Positions 992 through 26,296 of a DNA stretch of 32,255 bases are shown one piece after another (within the stretch, counting starts at the first letter, position 1; every line of letters begins with the position of its first letter). The translations under genes were made by a program, and so were the position numbers. The stretch covers positions 1-32,255 of IMG/VR virus record IMGVR_UViG_3300046009_005978; one strand, given 5' to 3'. Under the pieces are notes generated by a model. That model was not told where the DNA came from and did not search any database. It was given only the letters and a program-made list of their open reading frames with translations. The DNA is from a virus.

Positions 992-1036
992 GAAAACCGT
1001 AGATGTTTTCAGGGGGACTTCGGTCCCCCTTTTTTT
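992..1036 (+). terminator. Rho-independent terminator of gp32, UUCG tetraloop
   Basis: The main hairpin has an 8-bp stem, AGGGGGAC at 1011-1018 and GTCCCCCT at 1023-1030, closed by a TTCG loop (C-UUCG-G in RNA, exceptionally stable). T1030-T1036 form the U-tract. A second weak hairpin, GAAAAC at 992-997 with GTTTTC at 1005-1010, stands just before it. The T-tract serves plus-strand transcription. On the minus strand the same stem has no U-tract after it, so it probably stops gp32 transcripts from entering the convergent tape-measure gene. The T-tract overlaps the tape-measure stop codon at 1035-1037. Confidence 0.93.
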
Positions 1037-3695
1037 ATACTAAAGAAACAGATGTAAATGTCGATGGGTGAGAGAAATCTTTTGCGATTGCTCTAATGAA
1101 GGTGTCATCACCGATTCGTGGTTGCGCTTTGACAGGCGATCCTTGAATTTCTGGTTTTCTTTGTTCTCTTTGAGCTCCACCGCCACCAGCTGAAGCAACA
1201 ATTGCTGGTGCAACTGCAGCAGCTGCTTCTCTTGTTGCTTGCATTTCTGTTGTTGCTGCATTAATTTGAGCACCAGATGATGGTGTTGGCGTTACTGCGC
1301 TTGCAACTGCTTGAACTGCTTTCTTTGATTGATATGATTGACCATCTAATGGGATAATCGCTTCTGTGCCATGAAGCGTTGCTGGATAACCAGAAGTTGG
1401 ACCAGAGGCAACACCACCAGCAGCTGCATACATACTGCCGTCTGCTGCCCTTCCAGTAGTTCCTTGAAGATTCTTAGCAAATAAACCAACCTTTGATGCA
1501 TACTTATCTGGACTTGCAGTTGCATATCCTGCTGCTGCCATTTTATATCCAAATTCTTCTGGAGTTCTTGCTGCAACAGCATCTGCGTATCTTTTAGTTT
1601 TCAAAAATCCAACATAGCTGTCAGCAAAATCTTTTAGGTCTGCAAACTCAGCAAAATATGATTTAACTTGCACCCACTGTAATCCTTGATCTTTTGCTTT
1701 TTGCCAAGAACCCTTACCATACCATTGATCAACAGTAACGTCATTGCCTTTCTTTCTTATGGTATCATTTGGTCCTAAAATTGCTGCCAATGATTCTCCG
1801 CTTTTCTGTGCTCGTTCAAGTTGAGCTGCATTATATCGTTCTTCAGTTAAAACATAATCTCCTTTTTTATATTTTGTTCCAGCTTTAATTCCTGCATAAT
1901 TAAAACCTGCAGGTAAACTTTTTCCTGACCCAGATTCACCAGCCCATTGACCCAAAATGCCAAGGACAGGTGTACCACCTAATGCTTTAGATGCATATTC
2001 TGCCCATGGCGTCATTGTATTCACAAATTCTTCTTGGTTCTTAAATTTGCCGCCTGGAGGTGCCTTTCCAGTTGGTGCTGGTGCTGCACCACCTGGCATA
2101 TTGCTCTTTGCTCTTGATGTAGTTGTTGTGCTAGAACTTCTGGTAACTGTAACCTGATCACTCCCTTCATTTCTAGTGTCTGTTCTTATTTCAGATGATG
2201 TAAATGACTCTCCTGCTGCTGGTTTAGGTGCAGCTTCAGGTGCTGTAGTAGCAGGTGCAGCTGCTTCTGGTTTTGCTGCTAGAATTGATGGAGCTGCTCC
2301 ACCACCCCCTCCAGATGATGTTGGGGTAGGAGTTGCTGCAGAAGCAGTGGAACCACCACCTCCTCCACCTCCACCGCCAGTCGCGCCAGCTGAAGAAGGT
2401 CTCTCAAGATTACCACCACCAGCAACAGCAGCTGCTTGCGTTTCTCGCGTCATTGCATCTGTTTCTGGTTGTTCAATTTCAGGCATTGATTTTGGTTTTT
2501 CAGCACCGCCTAAAAATTTAAATGGTTGGAACGTAAAGCCACCAATTGGACCAACTTTAAAATTATCACCGAATGGATTTGGCAGTTCGAACTGCCCCAT
2601 TATTTCTGGAATTTCTAGTTTAATTCCAACTAAAAATTCTTTAATATTTGACCACACTTTAGATGCAATGTCCGTTACAATTGCAAAACCTTTTTGAGCA
2701 ACTCCCCATAAGAATTTACCTATGGCAACAATTCCAGGAATCAATGCACCAATGGCTCCACCTATAAGTCTATAAAACTTTTTAATTGAGAAGATTTCCA
2801 TAATATCGTCAAGTGTGTCTTGTACTTTATCTACTTTTTTACCAAGACCAGCATTAGGATCTTTTGGTTCTGCTTCTTTTATTTCAGCACCACCAATGGT
2901 TTTACTTTGCAAATCTGTGTCAATCTTCGAAGCACTTGGAGGTGGAGCGCCCATGGCTGTTGATGTTGAAGCTGGGGTTGCAGTCTTTAGTGCTGTTGGT
3001 CTTAAATTCATTCGTTGTCTAGCGGCTTCATTGCTTACAAATTTACCACTATCAACGTCACGATATCTACCAGATTCTTTTGAATACTTGAGACCAGATT
3101 TTTTCTCAAGTTTTCTCATGTCTCGTTTTGATGCTGGAGTTTCTTTTGCCTGACCTGCTCTGAGTTTATTCGCAATTCCTTCCACAGACAACTGAACGCT
3201 CTTCAAGATCTTTGATGTTTCCATAACGACATTGAAGATTTCCTTCAACATCTCATCTCGTTTCTTTATTTTCTCAGCTGTTTCTTCTTTTTTTGCTTTA
3301 TTATTTCGTGCGATGTCTTCTTTATCTTTAATCCCAAACTTTTCTTTTCTTTTTTGCACTTCATCTTTTGATAACTTCTTACCGAAGATTTTATCAATCA
3401 TTTCGGCTTGTTTGCTATTTGCAAGACCTAAAGCCTTTGCAATATTACCGTAACGAGATTGAACACCAGTTTTGGCTTCTTTAAATTCTTGTTGTAAGTC
3501 ATAGGCTGCTTGAAGACCTTTCAAACCAGCTGACGCTTTACCAAATGCACCAGAACCCTCTGCACTCTGAGTTGTCTCATCAAATGCTTGTTTCTGCATT
3601 TCCATTAAATTTTTAATCTCAGGTGATTCAGACCCTTTCTTTTGCTGAGATTTTTTCTTTAGACGATCAATGCTTCTTGTCTGTTGTATTTTCAT
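1035..3695 (-). CDS. Tape-measure-like tail protein with FlgJ/GH73-type muramidase domain
   Basis: A protein of 886 residues, probably the tail tape measure. The N-terminal 180 residues are charged, helical and coiled-coil-like. A hydrophobic segment spans about 308-342. Low-complexity Gly/Ala/Ser/Pro/Thr linkers cover about 430-550. Residues about 555-745 match the FlgJ / glycoside hydrolase 73 pattern: WAGESGSG with probable catalytic Glu587, NYAGIK at 599-604, and the closing GYATASPDKYASK at 723-735. A GGVASGPTSGYPATLHGTEA segment at 760-779 is typical of tape-measure C-termini. The order gp26, gp51, then this gene fits the T4 cluster 26-51-27-28-29 with gp29 as tape measure. T4 gp29 is about 590 residues and lacks this enzyme domain. 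The start overlaps the gp51 stop as ATGA, suggesting translational coupling. It could instead be a separate tail hydrolase. The enzyme call is firmer than the ruler role. Confidence 0.75.
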   Translation of the reverse strand: MKIQQTRSIDRLKKKSQQKKGSESPEIKNLMEMQKQAFDETTQSAEGSGAFGKASAGLKGLQAAYDLQQEFKEAKTGVQSRYGNIAKALGLANSKQAEMIDKIFGKKLSKDEVQKRKEKFGIKDKEDIARNNKAKKEETAEKIKKRDEMLKEIFNVVMETSKILKSVQLSVEGIANKLRAGQAKETPASKRDMRKLEKKSGLKYSKESGRYRDVDSGKFVSNEAARQRMNLRPTALKTATPASTSTAMGAPPPSASKIDTDLQSKTIGGAEIKEAEPKDPNAGLGKKVDKVQDTLDDIMEIFSIKKFYRLIGGAIGALIPGIVAIGKFLWGVAQKGFAIVTDIASKVWSNIKEFLVGIKLEIPEIMGQFELPNPFGDNFKVGPIGGFTFQPFKFLGGAEKPKSMPEIEQPETDAMTRETQAAAVAGGGNLERPSSAGATGGGGGGGGGSTASAATPTPTSSGGGGGAAPSILAAKPEAAAPATTAPEAAPKPAAGESFTSSEIRTDTRNEGSDQVTVTRSSSTTTTSRAKSNMPGGAAPAPTGKAPPGGKFKNQEEFVNTMTPWAEYASKALGGTPVLGILGQWAGESGSGKSLPAGFNYAGIKAGTKYKKGDYVLTEERYNAAQLERAQKSGESLAAILGPNDTIRKKGNDVTVDQWYGKGSWQKAKDQGLQWVQVKSYFAEFADLKDFADSYVGFLKTKRYADAVAARTPEEFGYKMAAAGYATASPDKYASKVGLFAKNLQGTTGRAADGSMYAAAGGVASGPTSGYPATLHGTEAIIPLDGQSYQSKKAVQAVASAVTPTPSSGAQINAATTEMQATREAAAAVAPAIVASAGGGGAQREQRKPEIQGSPVKAQPRIGDDTFIRAIAKDFSHPSTFTSVSLV
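1461..2033 (-). other. GH73 / FlgJ-like peptidoglycan hydrolase domain
   Basis: Residues 555-745 of the tape-measure-like protein. The ordered motifs of the family are visible: ESG with catalytic Glu587 (codon 1935-1937), NYAGIK in place of the usual N-x-F-G-I-K, an aromatic F-A-E-F-x-D-x-x-x-F-x-D-S-Y stretch at about 681-694, and AAAGYATASPDKYASK near 720-735 where the family has A-G-Y-A-T-D-P-x-Y-A. It probably cleaves the glycan strand of host peptidoglycan during DNA delivery. The exact bond (muramidase or glucosaminidase) cannot be told from sequence alone. Confidence 0.8.
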
Positions 3696-3919
3696 TTTCT
3701 TCTACGAGTTCTAGTTATTTTAGCCGCAGCACTTTTTTGTTGCTGCTGTTGTAACTTAATTCTTTCTTTCTCTTCCTTCAACCAATTCATGAGCAATGAG
3801 ACATACGTTTGCCTTTCCCAAGGCAACATATTTTCAATTTCACTCACAGACCACTTGTGATGCTGAACTAAACCAAAATTACAATTGAAATAGTTCGCTA
3901 AATTATCATAACCAAACAT
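3692..3919 (-). CDS. gp51: gp51-like baseplate hub assembly protein, possible tape-measure chaperone
   Basis: A 75-residue protein whose last 35 residues are charged and Gln/Lys-rich, ending TRTRRRK. By sequence alone it is hard to place. The call rests on position, between a gp26-like gene and the tape measure as in T4 (26-51). T4 gp51 is much longer (about 250 residues). Its ATG overlaps the gp26 stop by one base (TAATG), and its stop overlaps the next start as ATGA, so all three genes are probably translationally coupled. It is also in the -1 frame of gp26, directly after a slippery heptamer. It may therefore be made as the C-terminal extension of gp26, like the T part of lambda G-T. Confidence 0.55.
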   Translation of the reverse strand: MFGYDNLANYFNCNFGLVQHHKWSVSEIENMLPWERQTYVSLLMNWLKEEKERIKLQQQQQKSAAAKITRTRRRK

Positions 3920-4641
3920 TAGCCGAAAAAATCGTCGATTCCTCGCACGAAAATTTTATGCTCAAATTCACATTTATTGCACTTCACATCTTTATGAGTT
4001 TCAACATAAGGCATTGTACTAAAGAAGTTCTTAAATGGCTCTAGTTGATCCAAACTCAACGCTCCCATAAAGTCATAAAATTCTTCTTTACTAAAACTTC
4101 CCGCCTCATATTTTGATTCTTCATCAAAGACATAATCTAAGTGTTCATAAATTAAATCTAAAATATTCTCAATGCTATCCATTTGAGAAGCAACAGATGC
4201 TGAAATCTTTAAAGAAGGATAGTTTAAAATGACACCAATAGAATCATTAATCATAACTTTGTTCGAATGATTCTCAGGCTCAACAACTTTCACTTCATTT
4301 AAATCAACCTCAAATGTCATATTGTTGCCGCATCTCTCATCATTAACAATATTTTCGCATTTATATGTTAGTTCTAAAACTTCTCCGACTGATTTAAGTC
4401 GAAGATTGATAAAGATAAGTTCTAGGTCAAATAGAGGAATATCATCAATATCAATTTCCTCTAATGCGCAATTGTTGATAATTTGTTTTACAGTCTCTAG
4501 GAGAGAAGAAAGATCTTGGGCTTCTTTAGCCATCAACAACAACTTTTCTTCTTTCACAAGAAATGGTCTAAATCTAACCTTTCTATTCAAAGACTTTAAA
4601 TACACGTCAAAAATTGGATAATCTAATTTTGGTAAAGCCAT
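3919..4641 (-). CDS. gp26: gp26-like baseplate hub / tape-measure assembly protein
   Basis: A 240-residue protein resembling the T4 gp26 family (T4 gp26 is 208 residues), needed for hub assembly. The N-terminal YPIFDVYLKSLNRKVRFRPF (8-27) followed by KEEKLLL is typical of the family as I recall it. Two Cys pairs, Cys95/Cys104 and Cys221/Cys224 (CNKC), could form a zinc ribbon split across the protein. The end, GIDDFFG, is encoded by GAT TTT TTC GGC TAA, which contains a T-TTT-TTC slippery site. The start has GGAG six bases upstream and lies 16 bases after the gp54-like stop. As first gene of the coupled 26-51-tape-measure set, it probably acts with gp51 on the tape measure. Confidence 0.75.
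   Translation of the reverse strand: MALPKLDYPIFDVYLKSLNRKVRFRPFLVKEEKLLLMAKEAQDLSSLLETVKQIINNCALEEIDIDDIPLFDLELIFINLRLKSVGEVLELTYKCENIVNDERCGNNMTFEVDLNEVKVVEPENHSNKVMINDSIGVILNYPSLKISASVASQMDSIENILDLIYEHLDYVFDEESKYEAGSFSKEEFYDFMGALSLDQLEPFKNFFSTMPYVETHKDVKCNKCEFEHKIFVRGIDDFFG
3925..3931 (-). promoter_or_regulatory. Candidate -1 ribosomal frameshift site (T TTT TTC)
   Basis: On the minus strand the last gp26 codons read GAT TTT TTC GGC TAA. T3931 to C3925 form T TTT TTC, a canonical X-XXY-YYZ heptamer in the right phase. A -1 slip would continue as CGG CTA ATG, exactly in the gp51 frame, giving a 26-51 fusion of about 315 residues. No clear downstream stimulatory stem was seen. The site sits where tape-measure chaperone genes of other tailed phages carry a programmed frameshift. 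Confidence 0.5.
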
Positions 4642-8275: not shown

Positions 8276-9583
8276 ATGGAATCTCCTGGTTTAACAAACT
8301 CTAAAGATTATGAGATAAAGGTGCTAGATTTAATTAATTCTGGCGGTCAAGTCGTTGATGTAAGAAAAATCTTTATGGAACTTCAATTGTTCCAAGATAT
8401 CTACTCTTCAGTCATGAGCGGAACGATTGTAATTCAAGATGGTCACGACATCTTTTCTAACTTTTATTTTTGCGGAAACGAGTTTATTCGAATTTCTATC
8501 GATAAACCATCTCTTGGAAAACCTATACAAAAAGTCTTTAGAATTTATAAAGTTGGTGGTAGAAAGCCTGCATCAGATTCTGGTCAAATTTATTCTTTAT
8601 TTTTCTGCTCTGAAGAATTGATATTCTCAAATCAAAAACGAGTAAGTAAATCATATAAAGGATTGAGAACTGCAGATATTATTCGCGACATCTTAATCAA
8701 AGAACTGCAAGTTGACCCTACTCGAATTGGAGCATTAGAAAGGACTTCTGGTGTTTATGACCTTGTTGTTCCAGGATATCGTCCATTTGAAGTTGTTCAG
8801 TGGGCTGCATCACGTTCATATGATGCGTCTGGAAAGTATTGCTATTTCTTTTATGAAGACAGAGATGGCTTTCAGTTTAAATCATACAATACAATGATTA
8901 AACAAAAAACAATTAAAGATTTAAAATACGAGATTAAAAGAGTTGATCAAATTGATCCTGCATTAAATAAAGATTCTATTGATAGAGTTGAGATTAAACA
9001 CGACTTTGATATTTTGACTACGATGGCAAATGGTGGTTATGCATCTAAATTACTTTCTGTTGACATATTCAATCAGTCATTTAAGTATGACAATTATTCG
9101 ATTGATGTTGCAGAAGGTCAGAAAAATTTAATTAATGAATTCAAAGCAACTAATAGTTTAAAAAATTATGATAAAATTCCTATCACCAAAGCATTTGACT
9201 CCTATTTCTTAACAAACATTGCAATAAATGATACATCTTCCGAAAAAAGTAATGATCGCGATAAATGGTTGATGACAAGAACATTGCATATGACTGCAAT
9301 GCATACTTTTAAATTGAATATCCTTATTCCTGGAGATATTTTACTCAAAGCAGGTGATATGGTAAAATATGAGTTTCCAAAATTTGAATCACCAGATCCA
9401 TCTGGAAAAGATCCTGATGAATATAGAACAGGAAAATATCTTGTAGCAGCGATCTGCCATAAATTTTCTGGTGGGGATAAAGGTGACTTTGAGAGTATCG
9501 TAGAACTTGTTTCTGATTCAGTGTCAAAACAAATTCCATCACCCAAAGATGGGCTTGATAAAGTGACAAGAAGATTCACATGA
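8276..9583 (+). CDS. gp27: Baseplate hub protein, gp27 / GpD-like
   Basis: A 435-residue protein (T4 gp27 is 391) with hub-family features: a beta-rich N-terminal barrel, VMSGTIVIQDGHDIF at 46-60, a helical segment with TADIIRDIL, and PGYRPFEVVQWAASRS, where hub proteins carry a conserved F-x-x-x-x-W-x-A-S-R. It should form the trimeric cylinder that carries the gp5 spike. Its stop overlaps the gp5-like start as ATGA. In T4 genes 27 and 5 are apart, so the close pairing supports a joint hub-spike complex. The ATG at 8276 has only weak Shine-Dalgarno support. Confidence 0.75.
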   Translation: MESPGLTNSKDYEIKVLDLINSGGQVVDVRKIFMELQLFQDIYSSVMSGTIVIQDGHDIFSNFYFCGNEFIRISIDKPSLGKPIQKVFRIYKVGGRKPASDSGQIYSLFFCSEELIFSNQKRVSKSYKGLRTADIIRDILIKELQVDPTRIGALERTSGVYDLVVPGYRPFEVVQWAASRSYDASGKYCYFFYEDRDGFQFKSYNTMIKQKTIKDLKYEIKRVDQIDPALNKDSIDRVEIKHDFDILTTMANGGYASKLLSVDIFNQSFKYDNYSIDVAEGQKNLINEFKATNSLKNYDKIPITKAFDSYFLTNIAINDTSSEKSNDRDKWLMTRTLHMTAMHTFKLNILIPGDILLKAGDMVKYEFPKFESPDPSGKDPDEYRTGKYLVAAICHKFSGGDKGDFESIVELVSDSVSKQIPSPKDGLDKVTRRFT

Positions 9584-11232
9584 AAGCACAAAAGAACTTT
9601 ATTGGTCTCGAGGGGTTCATTTGGTGGGTTGGTGTTGTTGAAGACCGACAAGACCCTGAGCAACTCAATAGAGTTAGAGTTCGCTGTTTTGGTTGGCACA
9701 CAGAAGATAAAAAACGAATTCCGACAAATGCACTACCGTGGGCGCACCCAACCATTCCAGTAAATAGTCCTGCTGCATATAATCCAAAAGAAGGCGACAT
9801 GGTTTTTGGATTTTTCCTTGACGGAGATCAGGCACAAAATCCCATCATAGTTGGAGTTTTTCCTGGCAAACCAGATAAGAAACCAAATTATGAAAATGGA
9901 TTTAGCGATCCAGGAACAACATTAAGTAGCAGACCAAAACGTCCTGATGATGCATCTGAAAAATATCCAAAATCAAAGTATTTGAAAGAAGCAACAACAA
10001 ACAGACTTGCTCGAGGTAAGGCTGAAGGCACAGTCATTAAAACTAGAAAAGATAACAAAACTAGTGGGATTAAATCAGCTGGTGGTGTTACATGGTCTGA
10101 GCCTAATCCTGCATTTGCACCAAAGTATCCATACAACTATGCACACGAGTCGGAATCTGGTCATGCATTTGAACTAGATGATACACCAGAAAAAGAAAGA
10201 GTTCATTTAGCCCATAGAATGGGATCTTTCTTTGAGATCGATTCTCAAGGCAGCAAAGTAGAAAAGGTTGTAAAGGATAATTACACTCTCATCATGGGCT
10301 CTGATCACGTTTATGTGAGTGGAAAATGTTCTGTAACAGTCGATGGAGATTGTAATCTCCGAGTTGGCGGAAACATGAATATTGAAGTTGCTGGGCAAAT
10401 CAATATGGCAGCTGGAGACGATATTCGCATTAAAGGCAAGAATGTGATGATTGAGTCTACTGGAGCATTTGACGTTAAGTCTGGTGCTGTAATGAATATT
10501 AATGCCTTTGACAAACTCAGCCTCAAGGGTGCAAATACAGCACTTCAAGGCGAGATTGTAGATATTCCTGCAGCCAGAATTAACATGCAATCAGGTTCAG
10601 CAGCTGATGCAACACCAACTGGATTAGCTGGTGGACAAGCGTCTCCTTCATCTGCTGCTGCGAATATTGCATCCAATACTGCTGCAAATACAGCATCAGC
10701 TGGTGGAACTGGCATCACTGGTGCAATAGATACTGCGCTCACGACAACATCGAAGATAACATCAGTTGTTGGCGCCGCAACCAATACAGTGGCTGGAGCA
10801 TTGTCAAATGTAACTTCTGCAATTAGTGGAAGTGCATTGGGTAAGGCTGTTGGTGGATTAACCTCCTCGGTATCAGGGATTGTTGGAGATTTAGGTAGGA
10901 CTTTAGATTCTACAATAGGTGCTCTCCAGTCAGTAACTTTACCGCTCGGAGAAATTACAGCTCGAGTAACTCAAACAGAAAATTTGGTCAATGGACTTCG
11001 TGGAGATATTTTGAGTTTAACTGGAACAGAAAGAAATACTACTCTCGGTAAGATCGATACAGTGTCAACTCTAGCGTCAAGTAAAAATATCGATTTCAAT
11101 ATTGATCAAGACATTACAACTGCAATTAATGTTGTTAAGAACGTTGGGGTTGCTGCATTCGAAACAGTTACTGGAAAGAGACTATATCCAAAAACAGAAT
11201 CTGTTCAAGTCCCAAGTTCAAACACAGGTTAA
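9580..11232 (+). CDS. gp5: gp5-like baseplate spike protein lacking the lysozyme domain
   Basis: A 550-residue protein. Residues about 9-97 form the gp5 OB-fold: GFIWWVGVVEDRQDPEQLNR (12-31) with VRVRCFGWH, then LPWAHP and GDMVFGFFLDGDQAQNPIIV. Residues about 110-185 are a Lys/Pro/Ser-rich linker. Residues about 190-340 are a beta-helical needle with short repeating strands (VTVDGDCNLRVGGNMNIEVA). T4 gp5 (575 residues) carries a lysozyme domain of about 170 residues between OB-fold and needle. No such domain is present here. Instead about 210 Ala/Ser/Thr/Gly-rich residues follow the needle. The piercing role is retained, but the enzyme appears to sit on the tape-measure-like protein. The start overlaps the hub stop (ATGA). 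Confidence 0.85.
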   Translation: MKAQKNFIGLEGFIWWVGVVEDRQDPEQLNRVRVRCFGWHTEDKKRIPTNALPWAHPTIPVNSPAAYNPKEGDMVFGFFLDGDQAQNPIIVGVFPGKPDKKPNYENGFSDPGTTLSSRPKRPDDASEKYPKSKYLKEATTNRLARGKAEGTVIKTRKDNKTSGIKSAGGVTWSEPNPAFAPKYPYNYAHESESGHAFELDDTPEKERVHLAHRMGSFFEIDSQGSKVEKVVKDNYTLIMGSDHVYVSGKCSVTVDGDCNLRVGGNMNIEVAGQINMAAGDDIRIKGKNVMIESTGAFDVKSGAVMNINAFDKLSLKGANTALQGEIVDIPAARINMQSGSAADATPTGLAGGQASPSSAAANIASNTAANTASAGGTGITGAIDTALTTTSKITSVVGAATNTVAGALSNVTSAISGSALGKAVGGLTSSVSGIVGDLGRTLDSTIGALQSVTLPLGEITARVTQTENLVNGLRGDILSLTGTERNTTLGKIDTVSTLASSKNIDFNIDQDITTAINVVKNVGVAAFETVTGKRLYPKTESVQVPSSNTG

Positions 11233-11235
11233 ATT

Positions 11236-12408
11236 ATGGCGATCGTAGTTACATTGCCTTGTCCTGCAACTTTGCTGCCGACAAAAGCAGACCTTGCAAA
11301 TATCTTTATGCAACTTGCAAGTTTACCTGCTCAATTTGAGGCAGAAGTTGAAAAAGTAAAACGATCTGCTGAGTCTCAGATAGATGCTGCTGTGAGACAA
11401 GCCATTCTAGAAAAGACTGCGCCATTGTATGCAGCTGCGGATAAGGTTCGAACGATATTAAATCAGATAGATTCTTTACTCGGAAACTTCCCGATATCTC
11501 TAACAGACCCGATTTATGCATATCTGAGTGTTCCAGCATGGGAATGGGAGAGAAGAATTACGGCAATTGTGCAAGAATATCATCTTTATGTACAAGCGAA
11601 ATTTATGGAACTTATCGCGAAGGTTCTTCCATTAAGTTTTTCTATCCCAATTTTAGGTTTAAGTATCGATGTTGTCCAGTTATTCTCTAATGCTGCGTAT
11701 AGAGCAGCTTTAAAGGCTCAAATTTTAGAAAGATTAGATTTCTTTTATAATCTAGTTCCTGAAATTTATAGAACTTTTAATGGCTTGTATGGAGTATTCT
11801 CCGCAGCAATCCAAGCAGAAATTATTTGGTCGTATATCATGAGCCAACTTAAAAAGGGAGCTCTGCAGATAATTTACAATGCACTCGGTGGACTAATCAG
11901 TAAATTCAGCACAATATGGAATGCATTAGGTCTTCCAGCTCTACCTGCTCTCTTAAGTTTAGACGTTGCTGCATTGATTCAGACAATCCTTGCAAGTATT
12001 ATAGAGCGAATAAAAAACGCTCCATATGAACTGAAAGAGAAACTCTTAAAAGAGGCAGTCGAACTTATCGAATCTCTCTCTATATTCGGGTTTAATGTTG
12101 TGACCTTGATTGGTGGAGAGATAGATCGGTATGTCACGAGTTACGAGCAGAAACTGAACGCATACATAGAGGCTTTACGAGACTTTGCAGAAGATTGGCC
12201 ACAGTACCTAATAAAACTATGGATGCAGAAGGTGACGGCATTCTTTAATGCAATAGGTTTGGGTGCTCTTTTGCAGTGGATAAACTTCAATTTTTGTACA
12301 TTCTTAACATTGATTGGAGTTCCAACTTCCATCTCGATTGACGTAGATGTTGCAGTTGATATAACCCAAGGATCGTTTTCAGCTTCTATAGAACCTGTCA
12401 CGACATAA
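11236..12408 (+). CDS. Unrecognised alpha-helical protein between gp5 and gp25
   Basis: I do not recognise this 390-residue protein. It is almost wholly helical, with amphipathic coiled-coil-like stretches (about 33-82, 104-131, 255-282 and 305-330). Hydrophobic segments lie near 132-150 (PLSFSIPILGLSIDVVQLF), 283-293 and 335-362 (AFFNAIGLGALLQWINFNFC onward). The hydrophobic patches are amphipathic enough for either core packing or membrane contact. There is no signal peptide. It follows gp5 after three bases and ends just before the late promoter of gp25, so it belongs to the hub-spike unit. Options are a hub or needle accessory, a membrane-active injection protein or an internal tube component. 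None of these is demonstrated. Confidence 0.85.
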   Translation: MAIVVTLPCPATLLPTKADLANIFMQLASLPAQFEAEVEKVKRSAESQIDAAVRQAILEKTAPLYAAADKVRTILNQIDSLLGNFPISLTDPIYAYLSVPAWEWERRITAIVQEYHLYVQAKFMELIAKVLPLSFSIPILGLSIDVVQLFSNAAYRAALKAQILERLDFFYNLVPEIYRTFNGLYGVFSAAIQAEIIWSYIMSQLKKGALQIIYNALGGLISKFSTIWNALGLPALPALLSLDVAALIQTILASIIERIKNAPYELKEKLLKEAVELIESLSIFGFNVVTLIGGEIDRYVTSYEQKLNAYIEALRDFAEDWPQYLIKLWMQKVTAFFNAIGLGALLQWINFNFCTFLTLIGVPTSISIDVDVAVDITQGSFSASIEPVTT

Positions 12409-21775: not shown

Positions 21776-24700
21776 ATGGAATTTAATATTGATCCATATT
21801 ATGATGATTTTGAGGATAATGCGAAAAATAATAATTACATGCGCATTCTCTTCAAGCCAGGAAAAGCAGTCCAGGCTCGTGAATTAACTCAAATTCAATC
21901 TATTCTGCAGAATCAGATTAAGCAATTTGGCGACCATGTTTTCCAGGATGGCTCCCCAGTTATCGGTGGCAATCTAACTCTCGACAATAAAGTTCGTCAC
22001 GTTAAACTTCTTGAATCTTACAATAACGTTGATATTGAAATCGATGATTTTGATCGCAAGGTTGTTCGCAATACATCAGGTTCTGTGCAAGCAAAAGTTC
22101 TAGCAACTTACTTCCCAACGGATGGTGTCCCTACTCTTATCGTAAAATACCTCACTGGACTTGAGTTCCAAGATGGCGACGTAATTAAAATTGCTGGAAC
22201 TACAACTCAAGCCCAATTAATTGCATCCAATGCTAGTGGACAAGCAACTGTTGTTTCTATCAACGATGGTGTTTTCTACGTTGATGGATTCTTTGTTCAG
22301 GTTTCTGATCAAACCGTTGTTGCTCAGGCTTATGGCGTAAATGCAAACGTAAAAGTTGGTCTTGAAATTACTGATACAATCGTAGACAGCGAAATCGATA
22401 CCACACTTCTAGATCCAGCTCAAGGATCATTTAACTATCAAGCTCCAGGTGGCGATCGATATCAGTTCAATTTAACGCTCTCAACTCGCCCTCTTGATTC
22501 TGTAGTTGATGAGGCTCAATTCTTTGAATTGATGCGTCTTGAAAATGGTATTATCACCAAACAAGTCAAGTACCCAGTTTACGCTGAACTCGAAAAAACT
22601 CTTGCTCGCCGCACATTCGATGAATCTGGCGACTATACAGTTCGTCCATTCCGTGCAACAGTTCTAGATGGAACTGACGCAAATAACTATACTCTTGCCA
22701 TTGAGCCAGGTAAGGCATACGTCAAAGGCTTTGAATTTGAAACGCTCGGCACAATCAAGATTGATGTTGAAAAGCCAAGAAGTGCAGCAGACGTAAAACA
22801 ATTATCAGATATTGATGTTGATACATCATCAGGAAATTACTTGTATGTAACGTCTGTGGTATCACCTGGACAGGGCAATGCGTTTATCAACATTGCATCA
22901 TTCGAAAAATTAGATATTCACTGCGGACTATCATCACAAATCAACGTTGGTTTAGGTGGTTCTGCTGCAAATGGTTTCATTTATCAAAATACTAAGATTG
23001 GTACAGCAAGAGTTCGTGACTTTATTCGTGATGATAATAGCACTGAATCTATTGTTGATGGAAATGGTGTTTATAGAATTTATCTAACCGATGTAAACAT
23101 TACTCCAAAAGTTCTAAAGGCTTCTGGAACTCATACATCAACAACTCTAAACGTGGCTTCTGGTCAGTTTATGCCACGCACTAATGGATTGTACACTAAC
23201 GTTTCAATAACCATTCTTCCAATTAGATTAGATGCTGTTGAGAATGTTTATGCAACCGCTCTTGGAAATACTTTTACAGTCAACGCTAATAACAACGGCA
23301 CATTTGCTGGTAAGGTAAATGTTGGTGACATTGTTCGAGTTGGAGACTTTGCTAAAGAAGTTACTGCTGTTGCCACAGGTAATTTGACAGTTAACTCAGC
23401 GTTCGCATATACTATGGCGAACTCATCATCAAACCCTGTTGTTGTGTATAAACAGACAGAATATTCTCAAAATGTTAGCGAACAAACACGCACCATCGCA
23501 AATTCTTGGTGGCAAGCAAACTATGCCACACTTGAAGTAGATCGTGCATTTGATAATGATGGTGTCCCAGATAATAATACAGTCTTTCAATTAAACTTTG
23601 GCGTTGATGACGCAAAATGTTTAGTTTCTGGCGTTGCAGTAGCAAACTCATTGCTTGCGAACGTAAACGTGGCAATGAATATTGCTCTTGATTCTAAGTT
23701 GATCACTGGCGATACTTATCTCTCAGATCCTCAAGATAAAATCTTTATATATCAGCTTCCTGGCTCATTCGTAAGAAGAACCTCAATTAATAATGCTGAT
23801 TACGAATATGATAAGATGGTGATGAACAAGACAGTTTCTGGTACTCCAGGTGTCTTCGTTATTGGATCTGGTACTCTTGCAGCTGCAGAATCTATTCCAT
23901 GGTCTGGCACAACGAGTTCAATTAGAGATAATCTAGTTGTTTATGTTCGAGACAAGGGTGCTTCCTCAACACCAAACGGATCATTGCTCAATCTAACCTC
24001 AGCAAACGTAACCGTCACATCAAGTCAGATTACGATCGATACTGGCGACGCTGCGCTTCAGGCAATTGATGCTGTTGTTCGTGTTAAATTGAATGATACA
24101 GAAGATCTAATTCGCACAAAAACGTACTATGCTGATTCGTCATTCAGCGCTGATCCGTTTACATATCCAACATCAAACGCAACAGCAAATGTTGAAGTGT
24201 CGTTAACTAACCTCGGACATGTTGCATCGCTTAATCTTGCAAACGGTTTGATTTGGCTCTCAAATCCATCGTTCAATGCTGTACGTCCTGGAGATTCAAT
24301 TTCTTTATTCCTTCCAGACGTTGTGAAGGTCAACAAAGTTCTAATGGGTAATACAACACATTATCCTGATTCGAATAATGTTGAAGATATTACAGAAAGA
24401 TTTGTATTTGATTACGGTCAACGCGATGACAAGTATGATCACGCAAGAATTATTCTAAAACAGGGTTATGGTTCTCCTTCTGGAAAACTGCTTGTCCACG
24501 TTGACTTCTATCATCATATCTTCTCAACTGTTAATAAACTATCTTTCTTTGGTCCATCATCATACAGTCAAGAGCAATATGACGACAACTTAATTCCTGT
24601 ATATGCTGCACAAATAAATGGCGGAATATACAATCTCCGTGATTGTTTGGACTTCCGTCCATCAAGACCAATCGGAGATGTTTCGGATAGTTTTAATGTT

Positions 24701-26296
24701 CCAAATATTCCAAACCCAGATTCAACTACTGAGTTATCATTTGACTATTACATGGCAAGAATTGATAAACTCGTGTTGTCGAAAGATAAAGAATTCAGAA
24801 TTATTAAAGGTAAGTCAGGTGTAGTCCCATCAGTCCCACGAGATGATGATGATGCAATGACTCTATACACATTGCGCTTACCACCATATGTTAATGACGT
24901 TCAAGCCATTCGTATGGAGTATAATGAAAATCGCCGCTTTACGATGAAAGACATCTCAAGTCTTGATAAGCGTATTGAAAAACTTGAGTTTTTTGTTTCG
25001 TTAAACAACGTAGAAAAACTCGCAATGTCTGATAAAACAAGTTACGAAGATAATACTGAAAAAGAAAAGTATGGTATTGTTGGTGAGAATTTTCAAAACT
25101 TCTCGATTGCAGACTTTAAAGATCCAGCATTTAGTTGTGGATTAGATCGAGGGTTCTTAATACCAAGAACAGAAACAAAGGCATTGTCATTCGCAAATAA
25201 ATTTTTATCAAATGCAAAACTTAATAAAAAGACAATATCACTAAACTTTACAGAAACACCTGCAATCTCTCAAAATCTTGCTTCTGATAAGGCAGTGTCT
25301 GTACAACCATTCCTATTCGGTCAGTTTAATGGTATTGTTGAGATGTATCCAGAAACTGATTTCTGGGTTGAGAATAAACTCAAGCCAGAAGTAATTACAG
25401 TTCCTGAGCGTATTATTGTTGAGCATACAACAGTTTATAAAGAAACAGTTATTGAAAGACAACCTCAAATCACGATTGAACAGATTTTCCCAACGAGAAA
25501 TGTTGAGACTATTATCATTCGTGAACCTGCAGTTGTTCCAATTCCATCTACGCCTGATGTGGTTATTGTGGATAATCCTCCACCACCAATTATTGTTCAA
25601 CCAGATGTGCCAGTTGAACCACCTCCACCTCCTCCACCACCAGAGCCACCACCTCTGCCGTGGGAACCACCACCTCCTCCTCCAGAGCCACCAACTCCTA
25701 TCGATTTGGGTAGCCCACCTGATCCAATCTGGATTCCATATGACCCACCACCAGTACCACCTGATCCTGAACCAGTGGTTGTCACTCAACCAATTGCAGC
25801 TGGCGGTGGTGGATGCGTTGTGCTCGAGAGTTTCATTCCACTTGTTGAATCAACAATTGTCAACAAGAGAGAAGTCAAACAAGCATTCCAATTAATCTCA
25901 GGATTTAAGATTAGTCTTGGATCTGAAAATGAATCTCTCGAACCAGTTATTGGGACTGTTGTAAATAATTTTGTGGATGTACAACCTTGCGTTAGAATAG
26001 AAACAGAAAGTGGAATTTCATTAGTATGTTCTACAACTGCACCAATTTACACTAAAGAGTTAGAATTTGTTAATGCTCCAGATTTGATGGGACGTTCAGT
26101 TGCTTGCATGAAAGACGGAGCAACATTCTGGGATAAAGTTGTTTCCGTTGAATCCGTTGGAGACAAATTTGTAAATGTGATTGATGCAGGTGGAACAGCA
26201 TTTTGGGCTGGAGAAAAAGAAGATTCATACATATTGCATCATAATGTGAAAGCATGGAATCGTACTGATCAGGGACTTGAATACGATAAGAAATAA
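21776..26296 (+). CDS. Large DUF4815-type baseplate protein with C-terminal Hint-like domain
   Basis: A 1506-residue protein. The N-terminus has the DUF4815 pattern of phage baseplate proteins: NIDPYYDDF (4-12), RILFKPGKAVQARELTQIQS (24-43), GDHVFQDGSPVIGG and VFYVDGFFV. The middle is beta-rich and includes one gp7-type module near nt 23250-23460. The region before about residue 1200 also has DCLDFRPSRP and YYMARIDKLVLSKDKEF. Residues about 1225-1266 (VPERIIVEHTTVYKETVIER and on) lead into a proline-rich linker (1267-1340), then Gly4 and a 144-residue Hint-like domain (1347-1490), with a 16-residue tail. It holds the position where T4 has gp9/gp10 and may replace them on the wedge periphery. 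Its exact role is unknown. RBS-like AGG lies at 21765-21767. Confidence 0.8.
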   Translation: MEFNIDPYYDDFEDNAKNNNYMRILFKPGKAVQARELTQIQSILQNQIKQFGDHVFQDGSPVIGGNLTLDNKVRHVKLLESYNNVDIEIDDFDRKVVRNTSGSVQAKVLATYFPTDGVPTLIVKYLTGLEFQDGDVIKIAGTTTQAQLIASNASGQATVVSINDGVFYVDGFFVQVSDQTVVAQAYGVNANVKVGLEITDTIVDSEIDTTLLDPAQGSFNYQAPGGDRYQFNLTLSTRPLDSVVDEAQFFELMRLENGIITKQVKYPVYAELEKTLARRTFDESGDYTVRPFRATVLDGTDANNYTLAIEPGKAYVKGFEFETLGTIKIDVEKPRSAADVKQLSDIDVDTSSGNYLYVTSVVSPGQGNAFINIASFEKLDIHCGLSSQINVGLGGSAANGFIYQNTKIGTARVRDFIRDDNSTESIVDGNGVYRIYLTDVNITPKVLKASGTHTSTTLNVASGQFMPRTNGLYTNVSITILPIRLDAVENVYATALGNTFTVNANNNGTFAGKVNVGDIVRVGDFAKEVTAVATGNLTVNSAFAYTMANSSSNPVVVYKQTEYSQNVSEQTRTIANSWWQANYATLEVDRAFDNDGVPDNNTVFQLNFGVDDAKCLVSGVAVANSLLANVNVAMNIALDSKLITGDTYLSDPQDKIFIYQLPGSFVRRTSINNADYEYDKMVMNKTVSGTPGVFVIGSGTLAAAESIPWSGTTSSIRDNLVVYVRDKGASSTPNGSLLNLTSANVTVTSSQITIDTGDAALQAIDAVVRVKLNDTEDLIRTKTYYADSSFSADPFTYPTSNATANVEVSLTNLGHVASLNLANGLIWLSNPSFNAVRPGDSISLFLPDVVKVNKVLMGNTTHYPDSNNVEDITERFVFDYGQRDDKYDHARIILKQGYGSPSGKLLVHVDFYHHIFSTVNKLSFFGPSSYSQEQYDDNLIPVYAAQINGGIYNLRDCLDFRPSRPIGDVSDSFNVPNIPNPDSTTELSFDYYMARIDKLVLSKDKEFRIIKGKSGVVPSVPRDDDDAMTLYTLRLPPYVNDVQAIRMEYNENRRFTMKDISSLDKRIEKLEFFVSLNNVEKLAMSDKTSYEDNTEKEKYGIVGENFQNFSIADFKDPAFSCGLDRGFLIPRTETKALSFANKFLSNAKLNKKTISLNFTETPAISQNLASDKAVSVQPFLFGQFNGIVEMYPETDFWVENKLKPEVITVPERIIVEHTTVYKETVIERQPQITIEQIFPTRNVETIIIREPAVVPIPSTPDVVIVDNPPPPIIVQPDVPVEPPPPPPPPEPPPLPWEPPPPPPEPPTPIDLGSPPDPIWIPYDPPPVPPDPEPVVVTQPIAAGGGGCVVLESFIPLVESTIVNKREVKQAFQLISGFKISLGSENESLEPVIGTVVNNFVDVQPCVRIETESGISLVCSTTAPIYTKELEFVNAPDLMGRSVACMKDGATFWDKVVSVESVGDKFVNVIDAGGTAFWAGEKEDSYILHHNVKAWNRTDQGLEYDKK
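25574..25800 (+). other. Proline-rich linker of the DUF4815-type protein
   Basis: Residues about 1267-1340 contain runs of four to eight prolines interrupted by Glu, Val, Trp and Tyr, for example NPPPP then EPPPPPPPPEPPPLPWEP. Such a stretch forms a stiff polyproline-II rod. It separates the baseplate-anchored part from the Hint-like domain, so the latter would project away from the body of the protein. Long apparent reading frames on the opposite strand here are artefacts of the composition. Confidence 0.85.
25814..26245 (+). other. Hint (Hedgehog/intein-like) domain, block B His replaced
   Basis: Residues 1347-1490. It opens with Cys1347 after Gly4 (GGGGCVVLESFIPL, block A-like). Block B appears as TESGISLVCSTTAPIYT, in which Ala1422 stands where intein-like domains have the TxxH histidine. 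LMGRSVACM and a long strand pair with FVNVIDAGGTAFWAGE follow (block F-like). It closes with HHN at 1488-1490 (block G-like). A length of 144 residues is right for a minimal Hint fold. Sixteen residues follow the Asn. Cleavage at Cys1347 or Asn1490 is inference. Loss of the block B His could weaken thioester formation. Confidence 0.6.

Follow-up and report, generated by a model that had tools for sequence, protein, structure and literature searches.

A GH73-type wall hydrolase at the tape-measure locus and a lysozyme-free gp5 spike in a T4-like phage

Which tail protein of a T4-like phage carries the peptidoglycan hydrolase, and how firmly is the enzyme tied to that protein? In T4, a GH24 lysozyme is located between the OB fold and the helix of gp5, and the tape measure gp29 is enzyme-free. 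The IMG/VR virus fragment analysed here (the window, 32,255 bases at full length) exhibits the reverse arrangement, with a GH73 enzyme. Profile searches of the window ORFs identified T4-type tail genes. The gp32 gene comes first; the minus strand then encodes gp4, gp2, a tube-like protein, gp26 and gp51, together with a protein of 886 aa. The plus strand encodes gp48, gp53, a gp27-like protein, gp5, a 390-aa protein, gp25, gp6 and more baseplate proteins. The gene order is nearly identical in Sinorhizobium phage phiM12, and the gp27-like protein has a homologue in phiM12, whose record carries an HHpred hit to gp27. The window shares with T4 the gp5, gp26 and gp51 families, and in both a single tail protein bears a hydrolase that would work during entry. 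The genes considered below are:

1035-3695, minus strand, 886-aa tape-measure-locus protein with hydrolase (ORF directly behind gp26-gp51)
3692-3919, minus strand, gp51-like hub assembly catalyst (phrog_634, E 2.5e-25)
3919-4641, minus strand, gp26-like baseplate hub protein (PF12322, 190.5 bits)
8276-9583, plus strand, gp27-like hub protein (phrog_350 tail protein, E 2.2e-77)
9580-11232, plus strand, gp5-like spike without lysozyme (PF06714, 54.5 bits; alignments to PDB 1k28 and 9f4a; best Foldseek match 1pdl)

Other features of the window were recorded in passing. Between gp32 and the tape-measure-locus gene, which converge, a GC-rich hairpin with a T run behind it (1000-1040) looks by eye like a terminator. 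The 390-aa protein behind gp5 (11236-12408) is helical and hydrophobic; it has a counterpart with 54% identity in L014, and other proteins occupy its position in L018, L019 and L021. A 1506-aa protein (21776-26296) terminates with a proline-rich linker plus a segment that starts with Cys and finishes in HHN. This end resembles a Hint/intein-type domain by eye, and phmmer against the PDB gave nothing notable.

The window gp5 combines an OB fold with a trimeric β-helix, as in the T4 gp5 family, and has no lysozyme between them, in agreement with the sequence-only reading of this DNA. Both flanks align to T4 gp5 (PDB chain 9f4a): residues 13-112 correspond to T4 residues 8-118, and residues 170-257 correspond to T4 residues 375-462. 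Between these blocks stand 57 residues, compared with about 257 in T4, so a lysozyme cannot fit. A divergent lysozyme in residues 100-190 was sought and there is no room for one; the AlphaFold model, which is rough (18 sequences, mean pLDDT 58), is disordered at residues 95-149. The top Foldseek matches of this model are T4 gp5 structures, and PHROGs profiles cover the OB fold (residues 4-151) and, further on, part of the helix. After the β-helix, gp5 of this clade adds a helical C-terminal domain predicted with confidence, which in the window holds no hydrolase:

9916-10086, plus strand, gp5 linker, residues 113-169 (57 residues), at the position of the T4 lysozyme (T4 gp5 alignment; mostly disordered in the model)
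10870-11145, plus strand, gp5 helical C-terminal domain, residues 431-522 (pLDDT mostly about 80-92; no Pfam domain)

The same form is found beyond the window. In 113 related gp5 proteins, the distance from OB fold to helix has a median of 83 and a maximum of 129, against 281 in T4. None of the 113 has an enzyme-sized insert at this site, a count to be read with the possibility that the gp5 scans favour insert-free forms, because ranking of the loci relied on tblastn scores against queries that lack the insert. The absence is general among the sampled relatives and is therefore not a loss specific to the window phage, as had been supposed.

The hydrolase is found instead in the 886-aa protein, where a GH73-type domain had been read from the sequence:

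1461-2033, minus strand, GH73/FlgJ-type glucosaminidase domain, residues 555-745 (Pfam envelope 567-737; PF01832, TIGR02541)
1935-1937, minus strand, Glu587, putative catalytic acid of the ESG motif (aligned with FlgJ ALESG)

The Pfam Glucosaminidase profile PF01832 scores 31.7 bits, above its curated cut-off of 30.2 (E 2.8e-7), so the domain does score as GH73. The NCBIfam FlgJ profile TIGR02541 matches at E 1.3e-8, below its full-length equivalog cut-off. Glu587 is located in QWAGESGSGK, and AGYAT occupies residues 722-726, both where they had been placed. A phmmer comparison with FlgJ structures was weak (E about 0.1) and aligned FlgJ ALESG to the window AGESG. The profile matches confirm a wall hydrolase domain of GH73/FlgJ type in the 886-aa protein, with predicted enzymatic activity. 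A single-sequence AlphaFold model of the domain was uninformative (pLDDT 47), and phmmer found no match to the whole protein in the PDB. Searches for relatives of the GH73 domain returned only near-identical contigs and faint matches to phage endolysins. The hydrolase HMMs built in this analysis detected no other hydrolase in any ORF of the window.

The protein that carries this domain is most likely the tape measure, judging from its gene neighbourhood, a motif in common with annotated tape measures and the longer locus proteins of a long-tailed phage. We infer the identity in this way because homology to T4 gp29 is undetectable: hhalign of eight tape-measure-locus proteins gave nothing (probability 0.2%), and the T4 gp29 family PF25671 had no Pfam match in the 886-aa protein at E 1. 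A large gene lies behind gp26-gp51 in the window and in its relatives wherever the contig reaches. The shared motif is located behind the enzyme:

1347-1418, minus strand, motif GGVASGPTSGYPATLHGTEAIIPL, residues 760-783, common to annotated tape measures (CGphi29 match)

A 40-aa stretch of the window containing this motif matches the protein annotated as tape measure in Salicola phage CGphi29 (E 6e-6) and cyanophage proteins at the same locus; matches to Streptomyces phage tape measures are weak (E 6 and above). The motif is absent from all 1281 other ORFs in the set that are at least 250 aa long. The idea of a PEAIMPL-type motif in the lambda tape measure was rejected, the lambda protein being without it, and the motif search was used instead.

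Length at the locus was compared among cyanophages. S-CREM2, with a tail of 418 nm, has locus proteins of 1565 and 1456 aa, those of S-N03 (138 nm) are 933 and 722 aa, and those of S-H34 (129 nm) are 936 and 735 aa; S-CRM01 (140-170 nm) has a single gene of 864 aa. The S-CREM2 genes are thus about 1.7 and 2 times longer than those of the 129-138 nm relatives, a comparison of few phages in which length is not proportional to the tail. The extra length consists of low-complexity repeats, again not in proportion to tail length, and the neighbouring gp27-like gene is not longer in S-CREM2. The repeats (L238:4484-13555) are TTNNNSTTS-like and QQSMGSVAPAGGF-like.

The end of the 886-aa protein is conserved even where its enzyme is not:

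1038-1103, minus strand, C-terminal tail TFIRAIAKDFSHPSTFTSVSLV, conserved in 7 of 8 clade members and a putative docking end for the hub

The proteins of the window clade share 17-22% identity with the window protein and carry enzymes of unrelated families, and seven of the eight end in the pattern F-x-R-A-[IL]-[AS]-[KR]-D-F-[SA]-H-P. A recognisable version of this tail is also present in L190, where the enzyme is on gp5 and the tape-measure-locus protein is enzyme-free. The enzyme slot lies between the presumed tape part and the conserved tail, which probably docks in the hub. In a tree of the gp26, gp4 and gp27-like proteins, the seat of the enzyme changes at least 5-6 times among enzyme-bearing loci, the tree being a quick one with long branches and no bootstrap. 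Since it is unrooted, no direction from spike to tape measure is claimed over the reverse. Enzyme type and carrier both vary so readily among relatives that the site acts as a kind of interchangeable tool holder.

The distribution of the two seats was surveyed in loci from three gp5 profile scans of IMG/VR and from cultured phages. Fifty non-redundant loci have a complete gp5 and a tape-measure-locus protein, with the exception of L025, in which gp5 runs off the contig. Domains were called with Pfam, NCBIfam, a GH104-type match to the lambda lysozyme and HMMs grown from survey examples; the GH19 (L018, L019), GH104 and transglycosylase-like calls rest on our own HMMs or on motif reading, with no Pfam cut-off. 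A gene directly behind the tape-measure locus was scored as a third state, the only position outside the two proteins that was counted. The enzyme is fused at the tape-measure locus in 15 loci, located in the next gene in 6, and attached to the gp5 C-terminus in 8; it was undetected in 21. The fused enzymes comprise GH73 (window), VanY (L014, L025, L029), GH19 (L018, L019, L027), GH104 (L021, S-CAM4), GH24 (L038), a Pesticin-type domain (L122), Phage_lysozyme2 (L177 and L178, whose contigs are also listed as L060 and L099) and, less certainly, transglycosylase-like domains (L055, L216). The next gene encodes GH19 (L187, L199, L204, L223), VanY (L051) or GH24 (L208). The gp5 C-terminus carries GH24 (L046), M15 (L105, L180, L189), CHAP with GH19 (L104), GH19 (L087), GH104 (phiM12) or TIGR02594 (L190, below its cut-off).

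In none of the 50 loci is a hydrolase fused to both proteins, a non-overlap limited by sensitivity because 21 of the 50 have no detected enzyme. Zero overlap of 15 and 8 among 50 independent draws has a probability of about 0.04, which is indicative only because the surveyed loci are related. The window phage is not alone in pairing an enzyme-free gp5 with an enzyme at the tape-measure locus. Thus, of the paired loss and gain that the sequence-only reading had proposed, the inverse occurrence of the two domains stands; the phage-specific loss from gp5 does not, and GH73 is just one of several families at the site. We tentatively extend this to a one-seat rule, for which we see a somewhat less than even chance: in a large T4-like branch, any one virion would have its wall hydrolases at the C-terminus of either the tape measure or gp5 and never at both, and cassettes of unrelated families would swap from seat to seat and from lineage to lineage without change in the structural ends.

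Known systems share parts of this arrangement. Hydrolase domains in tape measures are already known from TM4 (a mycobacteriophage), T5 pb2, phiIPLA35 and enterococcal phages; those named in one account are siphoviruses (PMC6116005), and in the enterococcal phages the domain is C-terminal (PMC10194240). The window differs from these siphoviruses in its T4-type baseplate, gp5 spike and exchangeable enzyme family. A spike with a C-terminal lysozyme is likewise known from RaK2, whose β-helix protein gp078 carries it (PMC3622015). In phiM12, gp5 also lacks a lysozyme between OB fold and helix, but a GH104-like enzyme is located at its C-terminus and the tape-measure-locus protein has none.

A parallel in position is found in the Kyanoviridae (S-CREM2, S-N03, S-CRM01, P-RSM4, S-CAM1, S-CAM4), which carry a hydrolase at the locus behind gp26-gp51. 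No Pfam hydrolase was found in gp5 of S-RIM8, S-CAM1, S-N03, S-CRM01 or S-CREM2. GH24, the tail-lysozyme family, is in gp5 in T4 and at the tape-measure locus in S-CRM01, S-N03, S-CREM2 and P-RSM4. The Kyanoviridae differ from the window in often having two tandem genes, in using GH24, GH19 and GH104 more commonly than GH73, and in their annotation as endolysin or chitinase. S-CAM1 has a sub-threshold PF01832 hit (26.3 bits); this candidate gave no convincing alignment with the window domain. The tandem large genes behind gp51 (L234:9310-14705, L235:6634-11675, L238:4484-13555, L239:10934-15903) show N-terminal similarity within the pair in P-RSM4 and S-RIM8 (24-33% identity), and the pairs of S-N03 and S-CREM2 carry different hydrolases, GH19 and GH24, suggesting paired tape-measure paralogues.

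Taken together, we consider it probable that the 886-aa protein is a T4-like tape measure with a peptidoglycan hydrolase in an exchangeable slot near its hub-proximal C-terminal end, behind a bare gp5 spike. The gp5 trimer, reduced to OB fold and β-helix, would pierce mechanically. After contraction, the tape measure would exit the tube behind the spike, and the GH73 domain would open the peptidoglycan in the periplasm. In the Anabaena myophage A-1(L), the tape measure has three distal ends that make up a tripod inside the hub (PMC10966104). If this arrangement holds here, the conserved tail would dock in the hub, and the enzyme would lie just above the spike and be released after it. The order of wall digestion may differ from that in T4, as the sequence-only reading proposed. 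A-1(L) and the window have in common a contractile tail and hydrolases at the centre of the baseplate, and the tape-measure ends that reach the hub in A-1(L) would do so here too. The carrier differs: A-1(L) has its enzymes in gp15, the barrel protein of the hub (PMC10966104).

It is unlikely, though the least improbable of the alternatives, that the 886-aa protein carries its hydrolase in some other role, in the hub or inside the tail, and that the ruler lies elsewhere, for example in the 390-aa protein behind gp5. The lack of detectable gp29 homology, weak PHROG matches of the 390-aa protein to tape measures and the two large genes at the locus of many cyanophages would fit such a reading. 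However, close relatives lack the 390-aa gene or have another in its place, whereas the large gene behind gp26-gp51 is constant wherever the contig reaches; the latter also encodes the motif of annotated tape measures, and the locus genes, unlike the gp27-like neighbour, are longer in S-CREM2. We regard as rather improbable a GH73 fold that is inactive or non-essential, such as a wall-binding module. The PF01832 score barely over the cut-off and the restriction of same-enzyme relatives to near-identical contigs would allow it, but Glu587 of the ESG motif is intact and relatives retain some hydrolase at the same site. Least probable is an endolysin-like lysis protein with no entry role. RefSeq names the locus proteins of P-RSM4, S-RIM8 and S-N03 endolysin or chitinase, and the two S-CREM2 proteins have been taken as endolysins possibly packed in the capsid (PMC10665884). 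Against this, the window enzyme is embedded in a large protein inside the baseplate gene block, and both counterparts in S-CREM2 were detected in the virion, by 73 and 71 unique peptides.

No description of enzyme and seat exchange in T4-like phages was found in the literature searched, which was mostly non-subscription. A survey of pelagimyophages found gp5 to be divergent and could identify no tape measure (PMC7029224), and the tape-measure reading of the 886-aa protein supplies a likely identity for this missing tape measure of uncultured T4-like phages. It also suggests that the cyanophage gene products annotated as endolysin or chitinase belong to the tail and function during entry. An exchangeable enzyme slot could be matched to the wall chemistry of the host, and it could serve to find out at which stage of infection wall cutting takes place.
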